DNA of 46,030 nt from Ignavibacterium sp. (GTDB taxonomy: Bacteria > Bacteroidota > Ignavibacteria > Ignavibacteriales > Ignavibacteriaceae). This document shows, one piece after another, positions 1,741-5,957 of this stretch (position 1 is the first letter of the stretch; each line of letters opens with the position of its first letter). The notes below the pieces were generated by a model. The model was not told the origin of the DNA, ran no database searches, and saw only the letters and a list, made by a program, of their open reading frames with translations. The position numbers and the translations under genes are program-made. Location of the stretch: contig JANWVQ010000056.1 in assembly GCA_025056745.1 (NCBI GenBank), positions 1 to 46,030 of the forward strand, given 5' to 3'.

Positions 1741-2529
1741 CTATTTGCTTAGTAAAATAACCAATGCAGAGTCGTAATTTTCAAAAGGAATTACGATTTC
1801 AAATAATCTATCATTTCTGTTCTTTAAATTGAAATCTTCACTGAACCAAGCTTCAGCTAATATTTCTTCACCTTCAGTTGGATATTCCTTGCCATTTAAG
1901 TGATCATTTACGTACGACAAATTACTTACATTGCTATTAATTCTTATAAACTTATATTTGAAGAATTTATTAATAACAGTCCATTTAATTTTTTTATCTT
2001 TAATAAAAATACTTGCAGTCGGATGTTGCCCTATTTCAGAATATCTAATTGCTGCTGAAGTTAAAGATACATTAAAATACTGAGATAGATCTTTTAACAA
2101 TTTATAATTGAATTTTTTTCCTTTTGTGAAATTAACGAACCAATCTGTATGCATTAATAATTCAGCAGCAAAATCATTAGCATTTTTCTCACGTCCGTTT
2201 CTACTATAATTTCCAAATATATCGTCATACTTACAAGTATAAGAAAGCTTATCATTAACCTGAAATCCTCTTTCATTATAAAAATGCCCTAACTCGTGTG
2301 CAATAGTAAATCTTTTTCTTGTTTCCAACTTGATATCTTTACTTATAGTTATAACAGCAACACCACTACTTATAACAATTTTTCCGAGTGCAGATTTCAA
2401 ATAGTCATAAATTATTTTTACGCTATCAGTATTAGCTATTTCATCGAAATCAATTTCATCTGGAGATTTAAAATTAAATCTTTTAATCACTTTAACTGCA
2501 TTTGCAACTGCTAAATTGTTTTTTTCCAT
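1741..2529 (-). CDS. ImmA/IrrE-family (M78) zinc metallo-endopeptidase
   Basis: This 262-aa protein carries the zinc-binding HELGH at residues 78-82 in the context RFTIAHELGHFYNE. The third ligand motif is ANDFAAELLMH, with Glu123. Both are hallmarks of peptidase family M78. Relatives such as ImmA of ICEBs1 and deinococcal IrrE cut a partner repressor and so switch on mobile-element or stress genes. The ATG follows a GGGG ribosome-binding site. Here the upstream neighbours are a small charged protein and a sigma-factor-like protein rather than the usual XRE-type repressor. The C-terminal ~110 residues are divergent and may recognise the substrate. No membrane segment is seen. Confidence 0.85.
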   Translation of the reverse strand: MEKNNLAVANAVKVIKRFNFKSPDEIDFDEIANTDSVKIIYDYLKSALGKIVISSGVAVITISKDIKLETRKRFTIAHELGHFYNERGFQVNDKLSYTCKYDDIFGNYSRNGREKNANDFAAELLMHTDWFVNFTKGKKFNYKLLKDLSQYFNVSLTSAAIRYSEIGQHPTASIFIKDKKIKWTVINKFFKYKFIRINSNVSNLSYVNDHLNGKEYPTEGEEILAEAWFSEDFNLKNRNDRLFEIVIPFENYDSALVILLSK

Positions 2530-2595
2530 TTATCCCCTTTTAATATTAAAATATTTGTAATGTGCTTATTGTTAAAAGTATCTTTATATCTCACA

Positions 2596-2916
2596 TTAAG
2601 ATTTTTCATTCTTTTTTTCAGCAGAGCCTTTAGAATTTCCTTTTATCAATTCACTTAATAATTTGAGGTCCTTTTCAGTTATTTCAAGATTGCCTTTTTG
2701 ATCACGAGCAGCAAGTAAATATTTATTTCGTTCATCATATTCTAATTCTTTAAGTTTTTTTTCAATGAAAGTATTAACTTTTTTTAATAGATCATTTTTT
2801 AGTTTCTCTATTTTTTCCTCGGTATAACCAGCTGATTTTAAGTATTCCATAATTTCATTTTCATTCATTGAATCTATTTTTCCAAATATAGATTCAAGAT
2901 TAATATTTGTTTTCAT
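2596..2916 (-). CDS. Small charged protein of unknown function between sigma-like and ImmA genes
   Basis: I do not recognise this 106-aa protein. It is rich in Lys and Glu and predicted by eye to be helical: residues ~15-62 could form two helices or a coiled coil (SMNENEIMEYLKSAGYTEEK, then a Lys/Glu-rich stretch). There is a short helix near 78-92 and a polar tail. The ATG has a good ribosome-binding site (AAAGGTG). It lies 40 bases after the sigma-like gene and 66 bases before the ImmA-like peptidase gene on the same strand, so co-transcription is likely. By position it could be an anti-sigma factor or the substrate of the peptidase. That is inference only. Confidence 0.65.
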   Translation of the reverse strand: MKTNINLESIFGKIDSMNENEIMEYLKSAGYTEEKIEKLKNDLLKKVNTFIEKKLKELEYDERNKYLLAARDQKGNLEITEKDLKLLSELIKGNSKGSAEKKNEKS

Positions 2917-2956
2917 AAAACACCTTTTTTATGTGTGTTATTAAATTAGATAAAAA

Positions 2957-3565
2957 CTAATTAGCATTATTAGATGAAATCTTTCTTTTAATTCTTTTTT
3001 TTGAATTATCTACTTCATTGCCAGAAATTTTTAATTTTTTTGAAATATCCTTTCTATTATAGCCTTGTAAAATAAGATCAAATACTTCAATATCTCTATT
3101 ATCACTCAATTTTTTTTTTACTATTTGAATATTTTCTTTAACTTCATAATCTTTTTGAATATCAATATCGCTGACAAAATCAACTCCATAATTTTCTTCC
3201 TCATCATTTCCATCATCAGTAATATTTAGAGATTCTCTCAATACAAGATATTTGTTTTTATTAGGATTAAAATAATCTAATAAATACCACTCAAGAATTT
3301 TATTAAACCCTCTACAAAATGTTTTGTAATTTGTTAAATCTATTTCCCTTCGACCCTGTAAAATCAAGAATATGACCTCACTTATAATGTCCTCTGGTTG
3401 TAAATCATTAGAGATATTTTTCTCTGAATCGAAAACCATAGAACATTTCAAAAGGGTTTTTTCATAATTTTCATTGATGAAGGTGGTTAAATAATCGTGT
3501 AATTTACAGACATCCTCCTTATTGTAAACAGACCGTTGTTTTTCATTTTTTCCCAAATTTTTCAT
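2957..3565 (-). CDS. Sigma-70-family (ECF-like) transcription factor
   Basis: This is a 202-aa protein when started at the ATG at 3565. That ATG follows a textbook GGAGGT with 4-base spacing; the longest frame would use a TTG inside that same site. Residues ~53-100 (QPEDIISEVIFLIL followed by FNKILEWYLLDYF) resemble sigma region 2 of extracytoplasmic-function sigma factors. Residues ~155-195 (VFDLILQGYNRKDISKKLKI, then EVDNSKKRIKRKI) form a sigma region 4-like helix-turn-helix. Between them lies an acidic linker (DDGNDEEENY). It is the first gene of a likely three-gene unit with the 106-aa protein and the M78 peptidase. Similarity is weak enough that it could be a sigma-like DNA-binding protein without promoter specificity. 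Confidence 0.7.
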   Translation of the reverse strand: MKNLGKNEKQRSVYNKEDVCKLHDYLTTFINENYEKTLLKCSMVFDSEKNISNDLQPEDIISEVIFLILQGRREIDLTNYKTFCRGFNKILEWYLLDYFNPNKNKYLVLRESLNITDDGNDEEENYGVDFVSDIDIQKDYEVKENIQIVKKKLSDNRDIEVFDLILQGYNRKDISKKLKISGNEVDNSKKRIKRKISSNNAN

Positions 3566-3962
3566 TATGACCTCCAATAAATATTAATATTAAAATTTTA
3601 CTGTGATTTATACTATACCAAAGTATGAAATAACAACTTATCTGACAAATTAAATTTTAATACTAAGTATAAATATTATTTAGCTTTAGCGTTTTACCAG
3701 AAAGGTTATTTTCAAATTGAAATTCAATTAGTCTCAAATATCATTTTTATAAATCTTCAAAATTTATTTGATTTCAGAATGATGTAGATAAATCTCATCT
3801 CCAAAAGGACTTCATATAATCTACAAAATAAATTCATATCATCTTCGGATTCGTAATTTCATTATTCATTTACATACAAATAATATGTCGATATGTCAAT
3901 TCGTGAGCCATTAAGTCACAATATTTCATTTTTTTATAAAAAGAAAAAAATTTTTTTCTAGT

Positions 3963-3984
3963 CGTGGCAAAATCGTTCAAAATT
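3963..3984. repeat. Two 11-bp units related to the 4090-4166 repeat array
   Basis: CGTGGCAAAAT and CGTTCAAAATT stand head to tail with CG at 3963 and 3974, exactly 11 bp apart. They resemble the CGTTACAAAG units further downstream, which suggests a second binding patch for the same factor. Confidence 0.4.
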
Positions 3985-4089
3985 TTCTCTTTAAATAGTA
4001 GAAGGCAATTGGTAAAAACGAATGAATATGATTTCAAACGAAATAGTAAGACAATTAAAATTTAAGGCTATAGATTTTCTATTTATTCT

Positions 4090-4166
4090 CGATAAAAGCT
4101 CGTTACAAAGTCGTTACAAAGCCGTTCTACTCTCGTTCAAGAACGAGAAGGAAACGGTAATTATTC
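4090..4166. repeat. Phased 11-bp direct repeats with an embedded dyad (iteron- or operator-like)
   Basis: Units of 11 bp start at 4090 (CGATAAAAGCT), 4101 (CGTTACAAAGT), 4112 (CGTTACAAAGC), 4123 (CGTTCTACTCT) and 4134 (CGTTCAAGAAC). CG recurs again at 4144, 4155 and 4166. The last part also forms a dyad: TCTCGTTC (4131-4138) pairs with GAACGAGA (4141-4148), and CCGTT (4122-4126) pairs with AACGG (4153-4157). An 11-bp step is about one helical turn, so repeats fall on one DNA face. OmpR/PhoB-type operators and replication iterons have similar layouts. The step is not a multiple of three, which argues against coding pressure as the cause. Confidence 0.6.
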
Positions 4167-4289: not shown

Positions 4290-4991
4290 ATGGCACAATT
4301 AAAAAATAAATATTTTGGCGAACTCAAAGGTAAATTAGGTGATGTAGTATTCAGACAGAGAGGTAAAACAAATTATATTACTCAACAACCACGTAAATAT
4401 AATCGCTCTCGAGACCCTGAACATCAAAATCGTATAAACACATTCAGGTTGGCTATAAAATTAGCCTCTGCTGTCAATTCCATCTCAGATTTGAAAGAAA
4501 TTTGGGATGATAAAAGTTATATAGGATCATCAACTTATAATCATTTGGTATCAGTGCTTTACCCAAATCTAAGGAGCGTCGATTCATATTCTTTGGTTAG
4601 AATTACTCCAGAGCGCAGCTTTAGTATTAAAGTAAAGCAGATAGTTATTAGTGAAACCCAACTTGATTTGAATATAGAGCCGTTGAGAGGTAATTCAGGT
4701 ATAAATCCAGATCTTGAGAATAAGGCAAGAATTGTTGGCGTAATTTGGTTATATGACCCAATTTCATCTAATAATCCAAAAGATGAATTCACGAAGTTCG
4801 TTTCAGATTACGTTGATCTCGACATCAACAACAACATTGTTTTTAATTTAAGTTTTAGCTCGAGCACAACAGAGCTGCTTAAATTATATAATCAATGTCG
4901 AATTTACAGCTCACTGATAACGTTCACTAGTGAATTCAGTTTAGTCAGCTTCTCCAACACTTTTTATGCTGATCTAAGCATAAGAAGATAG
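4290..4991 (+). CDS. DUF6266-like protein of unknown function
   Basis: This is a 233-aa protein. The N terminus (KNKYFGELKGKLGDVVFRQR) is followed by a P-R-K-Y-N-R-S-R-D-P-E-H-Q-N-R stretch and a short helix. This recalls the start of DUF6266 proteins of Bacteroidota, in which a G-x-x-G-K-[VL]-G motif precedes a P-x-K and an RT-x-x-Q motif; the match is from memory and loose. The C-terminal ~130 residues look beta-rich. There is no signal peptide or membrane segment. The ATG has a very strong AGGAGG ribosome-binding site. The gene stands alone with a long repeat-bearing leader and its own hairpin terminator (5022-5083), so it is probably transcribed independently. Function unknown. Confidence 0.7.
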   Translation: MAQLKNKYFGELKGKLGDVVFRQRGKTNYITQQPRKYNRSRDPEHQNRINTFRLAIKLASAVNSISDLKEIWDDKSYIGSSTYNHLVSVLYPNLRSVDSYSLVRITPERSFSIKVKQIVISETQLDLNIEPLRGNSGINPDLENKARIVGVIWLYDPISSNNPKDEFTKFVSDYVDLDINNNIVFNLSFSSSTTELLKLYNQCRIYSSLITFTSEFSLVSFSNTFYADLSIRR

Positions 4992-5149: not shown

Positions 5150-5545
5150 TCAAATCAGGTTTTTTATTTGCTTGACAAAATTTCTGAAATCATCTAAGAA
5201 ATCAAGCATTGAATATAATTTTTTAGGATCAACAGATATATATTCGTGAACTATTATATTTCTTAAACCAACCATTTTTAACAATCTTTCACATATTTCT
5301 TTGCCTATATAATTCTCCTTACACATTAATTCAATACACTCACTATAACTTTTAGCATTTCCAATATTAAATTTTACTACTAAGTGACAACAAATATCAA
5401 TTATAATTTGTATTGATTCAAATAAACCATATCGAAGAATCCATTCAATTTGTATATTATTTATCAAATCATCCACTTTATAATTAATACGGAATTTTTC
5501 TAATTCTTTGATATTTTCTTCAAGTTTATAAAGTCTATCAATCAT
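5150..5545 (-). CDS. hepT: HepT-like HEPN-domain toxin (type VII toxin-antitoxin)
   Basis: This is a 131-aa all-helical HEPN-family protein when started at the ATG at 5545; a longer frame would need a TTG at 5560. The HepT signature R-x4-H-x-Y is present as RNIIVHEY (Arg95, His100, Tyr102). In studied pairs this motif is the RNase active site, and the toxin is neutralised when the cognate MntA adds AMP to a nearby tyrosine. The start overlaps the end of mntA by 8 bases, so translation is probably coupled, with antitoxin made first. Length fits the family. Confidence 0.88.
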   Translation of the reverse strand: MIDRLYKLEENIKELEKFRINYKVDDLINNIQIEWILRYGLFESIQIIIDICCHLVVKFNIGNAKSYSECIELMCKENYIGKEICERLLKMVGLRNIIVHEYISVDPKKLYSMLDFLDDFRNFVKQIKNLI

Positions 5546-5957
5546 TATAAAGTTTACCAAACTTTAAATTTTCAATACGACTTAATAGAGCATTATTCAT
5601 CTTTTCTCTTAAAGGTTGAATATCGAAATAATATAACAATGCTTCCCTTTTGAATTTTATGAATTCTTCTTCATCCTTGATAAAAATTACTTTGTGTTGA
5701 TTAACTATGTTAAAAGCAAAATATGGAAATTTTTTAGGAAGATTATTTAATTCAACCAAATCTATTTTCAACTTAGTAATCTTCTCTAAATCATAAATTA
5801 TTTTACCAATACTCAACAAATCAAATTCACTTTTAGTATAAATTCCAATATCTAAATCACTTAAGTTATGATTATTATTTGACACAAAAGACCCGAATAT
5901 CAATGCAAAAGATATATTCTCGTATTGAAGGAGATAGTTATTAATTTTATCTAACAT
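5538..5957 (-). CDS. mntA: MntA-like minimal nucleotidyltransferase antitoxin
   Basis: This 139-aa protein has the minimal nucleotidyltransferase signature GS-x10-D-x-D: Gly22-Ser23 followed by Asp34-Leu35-Asp36 (the segment NNNHNLSDLDIGIY). It directly precedes and overlaps hepT, the standard order for HEPN/MNT type VII systems. There the nucleotidyltransferase AMPylates and silences the HEPN RNase. All key acidic residues are intact, unlike in the related pseudogene at 42746-43085. No clear promoter is visible in the 70 bases upstream, which consist of degenerate AT-rich repeats. Confidence 0.88.
   Translation of the reverse strand: MLDKINNYLLQYENISFALIFGSFVSNNNHNLSDLDIGIYTKSEFDLLSIGKIIYDLEKITKLKIDLVELNNLPKKFPYFAFNIVNQHKVIFIKDEEEFIKFKREALLYYFDIQPLREKMNNALLSRIENLKFGKLYND

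Follow-up and report, generated by a model that had tools for sequence, protein, structure and literature searches.

The window analyzed here (the whole stretch of 46,030 nucleotides from contig JANWVQ010000056.1 of Ignavibacterium sp.) carries three consecutive genes on its minus strand, encoding a sigma-like protein, a small protein, and an M78 metallopeptidase (hereafter, the trio). A gene for a 233-amino-acid (233-aa) protein faces them on the plus strand. The features of the locus are:

1741–2529 (−), CapP-like M78 metallopeptidase gene, 262 aa (PADLOC capP match; PDB 7t5t)
2284–2298 (−), HELGH, residues 78–82 of the peptidase, zinc-binding catalytic motif
2596–2916 (−), small gene, 106 aa, helical product, proposed to act as a soluble anti-sigma factor and to be cut by CapP
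2701–2718 (−), codons for LLAARD, L67–D72 of the small protein; M78 recognition motif proposed from profile alignment
2957–3565 (−), sigma-like gene, 202 aa; proposed to encode an alternative (ECF-like) sigma factor that regulates its own gene
3693–3699 (−), TGGTAAA, putative −35-like element towards the sigma gene, without a demonstrated −10 in common with the element at 3965
3965–3971 (+), TGGCAAA, −35-like element towards the 233-aa gene, noted from TGGNAAA enrichment; CTTTAAATAG follows at about 3989
4086–4140 (+), five 11-bp units within the presumed 5′ leader of the 233-aa gene
4290–4991 (+), 233-aa protein gene, divergent from the trio; proposed sigma target

The initial annotation of this DNA had described a one-strand unit of sigma-like, 106-aa, and M78 genes, spaced 40 and 66 bases apart and led by a ribosome-binding site. 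All three genes were confirmed in that order, on the minus strand (which had not been stated), with gaps of 40 bases between the sigma-like and small genes and 66 bases between the small and M78 genes, and GGAGGTCATA sits 5′ of the sigma-like gene's ATG. Its description of the 106-aa protein as helical and without a family also held, as the protein has no Pfam match above the cut-off and AlphaFold models it entirely as helices (mean pLDDT 74, pTM 0.41). To this we add that the peptidase is, by its sequence, CapP, that immune operons usually lie opposite the trio, and that the gene at 4290–4991 is a likely target.

Identities of the trio proteins

Over nearly its full length (residues 11–261), the M78 protein matched the PADLOC capP profile (PDLC04141) at E = 2.4e-49, although this profile is not specific by itself, matching also in 4 of 14 control genomes and, across the phylum, in 189 of 395, mostly to other M78 proteins. 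Matches to Pfam PF06114 (E = 1.6e-13) and to the solved CapP structure, PDB 7t5t (E = 3.6e-5), were also found. An HEXXH motif is present in 40 of 40 trio CapPs, and H78, E79, H82, and a distant glutamate, E114, are invariant in an alignment of 25 of them. Judged by sequence, the window peptidase is CapP over its whole length. CapP normally cuts the repressor CapH. No XRE-type HTH repressor was found as a partner gene in the window when the two upstream genes were searched with Pfam and NCBIfam; the position of CapH is filled by the sigma-like protein, with its GerE and weak sigma70-ECF matches, and by the small protein, which has no Pfam HTH match.

Searched alone, the window's sigma-like protein had GerE as its sole Pfam match above the cut-off (5.9e-7), matched TIGR02937 (sigma70-ECF) over residues 49–197 at 4.8e-5, scoring 23.1 bits where the cut-off is 42.9, and matched NF041236 only at E = 1e-3. 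Among PDB structures, sigma-H (3mzy) was the top match of a profile built from 16 sigma-like relatives, with regions 2 to 4 covered (E = 1.3e-8). Among 37 members of the family, Sigma70_r2 was matched in 8, Sigma70_r4_2 in 6, and Sigma70_r4 in 5, the Sigma70_r2 match being absent from 29. Regions 2 and 4, which had been read from the window protein by the initial annotation, are thus recognizable at the level of the family. By profile, the family is sigma-70-like, while the window member alone scores weakly; the comparison of profile HMMs gave no sign of the unrelated fold that had been named as the outcome against a sigma factor.

The small protein yielded only weak matches in Phrogs, NCBIfam, and PADLOC (best, phrog_1638, E = 1.5e-4), and no Pfam match was common to more than 2 of the 39 members of its family. 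The best PDB matches of the family profile consisted of repeated short stretches, with no full match, and were rejected. Outside one motif the family is almost devoid of conserved residues; conservation is highest in the column of R71, which lies in the LLAARD of the window protein. Profile alignment matched the conserved block to a C-terminal segment in five XRE proteins that partner M78 peptidases (e.g., LMRNIKNLSQED), with a score of 24.5 against 16.3 for the best of 200 column shuffles, and with E values of 0.0013 at full length and 2.5e-4 for the C terminus, neither of which was reached by any of the 200 shuffles. The profile probabilities for this common motif are low (18.6% and 42.8%), and an equally high score (27.2) was obtained when the sigma profile, through its HTH, was aligned with these XRE proteins. 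When a simple matrix was used, the motif was detected at p < 0.05 in 12 of the 36 small proteins, and the window protein's best site was elsewhere than LLAARD. Because the motif is common to XRE partners of M78 peptidases, the small protein is probably the CapP substrate; we regard this evidence as good, but not conclusive. At one further locus (L164), a 102-aa protein with an LAIAAR motif precedes a short M78 gene, and no sigma gene was found.

Conservation of the trio

The arrangement is conserved far beyond chance for neighboring genes. Iterated profiles detected a sigma gene upstream of 40 of 45 close CapP-like ORFs. As for the other five, two (L051 and L061) have no trio, one (L052) lies at a contig end, one (L065) retains the small gene with an ATPase inserted and a contig end, and one (L068) has its sigma gene farther upstream (by eye). 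Beside 12 weaker CapP-like ORFs, which were hand-picked and two of which lie near a stretch end, no sigma gene was found (0/12). Of all CapP-like ORFs tested, 36 had a profile-identified small gene. Among the 30 best capP loci of the phylum set, a sigma gene was in reach in 27, and the remaining three comprise one cut before the sigma position (L105), one with an XRE partner (L090), and one with neither (L091). When called from the first possible start, the reading frames overlap between sigma and small genes in 20 of 35 loci and between small and CapP genes in 28 of 35.

Single-sequence matching across 146 relatives recovered CapP in 30 genomes and the sigma-like protein in 16. At E ≤ 0.001, the small protein was recovered in 2, namely its own genome and one relative, which makes it the least conserved of the trio; small genes of 105 to 140 aa do lie between sigma and CapP genes in the loci and were missed by this search.

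We compared the partners of CapP in named genomes and viral contigs. Of the best 80 of at least 391 CapP relatives in named genomes, 66 were accompanied by both sigma and small genes, a proportion that is not an unbiased rate, as these loci were found by a peptide pattern from trio CapPs. The others had sigma only (7), small only (2), an XRE partner (2), or neither (2), and one was too short. Most occurrences of the trio are in Bacteroidota; further loci bear the titles Planctomycetes, Verrucomicrobia, and Deltaproteobacteria, among others (same best 80 of at least 391). In viral contigs, the best 80 of at least 211 CapP relatives had an XRE partner in 70 cases, neither partner in 8, and a small-like match in 1, with 1 too short; a sigma gene or trio was found in none of these 80. 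A single-sequence CapP search of the viral contigs gave no relative, whereas an alignment-based query did find them. Within these selected sets, XRE plus M78 is seen as the phage form and the trio as the chromosome form. A lack of conserved neighborhood in relatives, which the initial annotation had set down as counting against its idea, was thus not what the counts of 40/45 and 66/80 returned.

Two other arrangements were observed. In L168 and L169, another ECF-like sigma gene, lying roughly 1.2 kb upstream of M78, is followed by a 212- to 215-aa protein and a short, 158-aa M78 protein; this is a second, different sigma-M78 arrangement. In L072 (8283–10012), a sigma gene is followed directly by a longer M78 gene (344 aa), no small gene was found between them, and a divergent 231-aa gene is present.

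Operons facing the trio

At 73 loci (from the best 80 of at least 391), the first gene beyond the sigma gene was divergent in 54, co-directional in 15, and not assessable in 4. By similarity to annotated seeds, the 54 divergent operons comprised 12 Bub or ubiquitin-like operons, 11 CBASS operons, 7 with the 233-aa family of the window, 1 MBL-like operon, and 23 others, at least 8 of which begin with PycTM-like and SMODS-like genes and two of which are Tn7-like (by eye). Pfam matches among 138 divergent genes included ThiF in 12, DncV-like in 11, SMODS in 9, Multi_ubiq and PycTM in 8 each, DUF2188 in 7, and E2_E and JAB in 5 each. In the phylum set, PADLOC identified a CD-NTase in 7 of 10 proteins scanned (E from 6e-62 to 4e-171; L112, L115, L116, L119, L120, L123, and L062), E1-E2 in L113 and L114, and BilD in L118, while Pfam identified Multi_ubiq in L113 and L114, ThiF with DUF6791 in L121, and DUF2188 in L124. 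Among the 7 window proteins scanned with Pfam, no CD-NTase (CBASS) match was present. Separately, the trios of L219 and L226 face an operon with TnsA-like and TniB-like genes (locus assignment by eye), a Tn7-like element that is perhaps under the same control.

The 233-aa protein, which we take to resemble DUF6266, has no Pfam family. Structure searches with its AlphaFold model (pLDDT 86, pTM 0.78) brought up nothing beyond a common Ig/FN3-like sandwich at the C terminus (best Z 8.1), with no viral structural match at E ≤ 0.001. The family is matched in 51 of 146 relatives, with up to 19 copies per genome. Since the trio-facing operon is elsewhere often CBASS, Pycsar-like, or Bub, the place of this gene suggests that its product is a candidate immune effector.

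The proposed leader of the 233-aa gene shows 11-bp periodicity, with 42 matches out of 66 where resampling gave at most 37, and in the leaders of its homologues (L132–L161), a lag of 11 or 22 ranked top in 16 of 29 loci. The tract, reminiscent of ParR-type 11-bp repeats, was considered as part of the sigma circuit and dropped, as it accompanies the 233-aa family also where there is no CapP match on the same contig (L144, L150, L153, and L160). A perfect inverted repeat, CTCGTTC-aa-GAACGAG, lies at its end (4132–4147). Adjoining the 233-aa gene, at 5150–5957 (−), are HepT-like HEPN and MNT nucleotidyltransferase genes, a toxin-antitoxin type pair; similar-looking HepT/MNT pairs lie near the trio-less CapP genes of L051 and L061 (by eye).

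Outward-facing promoter-like pairs

If the sigma factor reads both promoters, the intergenic region between the trio and the facing gene should hold two outward copies of a −35/−10 pair. In a first set of 27 intergenic regions, this test gave a combined Fisher p of 0.007, and the 11 regions shorter than 300 bases gave p = 5.6e-4, with L116, L121, and L124 at the test floor of p = 0.005. The window's own intergenic region held no significant pair (p = 1.0). In a fresh set of 33 regions, with first-order Markov resampling as the null, 13 reached p < 0.05; the combined Fisher value was 4e-9, which overstates significance because close relatives are included. From this set we dropped L182, L184, and L188, which had already been used, and left out intergenic regions outside 70 to 400 bases.

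The sequence TGGNAAA occurs 29 times in 28 intergenic regions, compared with 12.6 expected (maximum 25 in 500 resamplings), and it occurs in both directions at 6 loci, compared with 1.27 (maximum 5 in 300 resamplings). In the fresh set it was found 23 times, compared with 7.9 (maximum 16 in 300 resamplings). The motif of the pair varies among loci (TGGCAAA/AGCATA, CTGCAAA/AACATA, CGGTTAATA), but it is the same on both sides within one locus. For example, the pairs of L201 are GTGGCAAAA...GGAGCATATA and ATGGCAAAA...AGAGCATATA, L236 has CTGCAAAA/AACATATA on one side and CCGTAAAA/AACATATA on the other, and L254 has CGGTTAATAC on both sides. The paired motifs consist of two blocks at promoter spacing, face outward, and are not palindromes. 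A co-diverging, autoregulated sigma factor would be expected to leave just such a motif, specific to its locus yet shared by the two sides, and the paired outward motifs support a sigma factor that acts both on its own operon and on the one divergent from it.

A proposed proteolytic sigma switch and its alternatives

We propose, with a probability of about 0.6, that the trio works as a proteolytic sigma switch. This would be a variation on CapH-CapP control, with the small protein both bound and cleaved. What we observed is the gene order and its conservation, the family identities, the immune neighbors, the paired promoter-like motifs, and the motif common to small proteins and XRE partners; what we infer is sigma–anti-sigma binding, cleavage, a single-stranded DNA (ssDNA) signal, and an effector role for the 233-aa protein. 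At rest, the small protein (2596–2916) would keep a dedicated sigma factor (2957–3565) inactive. By analogy with CapP and PprI, which are activated by ssDNA according to PMC10904395, ssDNA arising from DNA damage or phage replication would activate CapP (1741–2529). Once active, CapP would cleave the small protein close to the conserved A-x-R motif (R71 in the window protein), and the freed sigma factor would bring RNA polymerase to two outward promoters in the intergenic region. Increased transcription from the promoter of its own operon would constitute positive feedback, and the divergent operon, which in the window would be the 233-aa gene (4290–4991), would be raised as well. The circuit in the initial annotation, in which the small protein would restrain the sigma factor and the peptidase would cut one of them, is therefore partly supported.

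The main rival to this sigma switch is a split repressor. Here the sigma-like protein would have lost its RNA-polymerase function and would instead bind DNA as a repressor, and the small protein would supply the cleavable part through which it dimerizes; the two would form a two-piece CapH, and CapP would derepress both promoters. Such an arrangement would fit the presence of the small-protein motif in the post-HTH part of XRE partners, the fact that an HTH family, GerE, is the clearest Pfam match of the window's sigma-like protein, and the 29 of 37 family members without Sigma70_r2, and a repressor site at both promoters would likewise yield matching motifs. We nevertheless consider it unlikely, given that the family's best PDB match is to sigma-H and spans regions 2 to 4, that Sigma70_r2 is matched in 8 of 37 members, and that the paired motifs have the two-block, outward form and spacing of promoters and are not palindromic.

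It is also conceivable, though we think quite improbable, that the sigma factor is real and the small protein is not its inhibitor, acting instead as an adaptor or co-activator, or that the sigma factor is what CapP cuts, with the effect of turning the operon off. Room for this is left by the fact that we infer the binding and cleavage of the small protein, and by the L072 locus, with its sigma gene followed by a 344-aa M78 gene and no small gene found between. However, it is the small protein that contains the motif common to known kinds of M78 partner, and a sigma gene followed by an anti-sigma gene with overlapping frames is usual for such pairs, an order that the trio shares, with overlap in 20 of 35 loci. 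That the trio genes are chance neighbors or passengers of mobile elements with no common circuit could draw on the HepT-MNT type pair at 5150–5957 and the two named-genome trio loci facing TnsA/TniB-like genes, but conservation already disfavors it and the paired promoter motifs do so too, and with the trio at 66 of 80 named-genome loci (best 80 of at least 391) and at 0 of 80 viral loci (best 80 of at least 211), we give it next to no credence.

Extended beyond the window, the sigma switch would make the trio one of a widespread and undescribed class of immune controllers, a claim to which we give slightly less than even odds. In these, cleavage of an anti-sigma factor by ssDNA-activated CapP would release a sigma factor specific to the locus, the sigma factor and its two promoters would co-diverge, and positive feedback would give all-or-none expression of CBASS, Bub, and other operons, with the 233-aa family as a new effector. 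The trio could then explain how many immune operons switch on, and the operons beside it, such as those of the 233-aa family, would become candidate new immune systems.

Comparison with known systems

We found no description of CapP with sigma and anti-sigma genes among the open-licence papers searched. An ECF sigma factor and a transmembrane anti-sigma factor reportedly control a CBASS-CRISPR island in Myxococcus (Bernal-Bernal 2024). That system resembles the trio as proposed here in using an ECF sigma/anti-sigma pair to control CBASS, and it differs in that its anti-sigma factor is transmembrane, whereas that of the trio is proposed to be soluble.

A parallel in protease and substrate is offered by type III-E CRISPR, where, according to PMC10028731, an immune protease, Csx29, cuts Csx30, the inhibitor of CASP-sigma. 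Like the trio as proposed here, this system combines an immune locus, an ECF sigma factor, a soluble inhibitor, and a protease that cuts the inhibitor. Csx29 is an RNA-guided TPR-CHAT protease, in contrast to the M78 peptidase of the trio, and Csx30 and the small protein are likened by role, not by sequence.

Among M78 peptidases, ImmR-ImmA and PprI-DdrO share with the trio a peptidase that cuts a neighboring or cognate regulator after DNA damage, as given in PMC10233336, PMC10904395, and PMC4374696; in these systems, however, the substrate is an XRE-type DNA-binding repressor, unlike the proposed substrate of the trio. CapH-CapP itself controls CBASS and Bub operons, according to PMC13373217, PMC10904395, and PMC10233336. 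In that system, too, CapP lies beside immune operons with a partner protein that has the motif common to M78 partners, but the partner is the XRE-type CapH, in place of which the trio has a sigma factor and a small protein. The known controllers named in PMC13373217 (CapW, CapH-CapP, and CapK-CapS) work through repressors. If our proposal is true, a protease-freed sigma factor with positive feedback would follow a different logic, silent until triggered and then self-amplifying, such that the trio would operate by release of an activator, where CapH-CapP operates by loss of a repressor.
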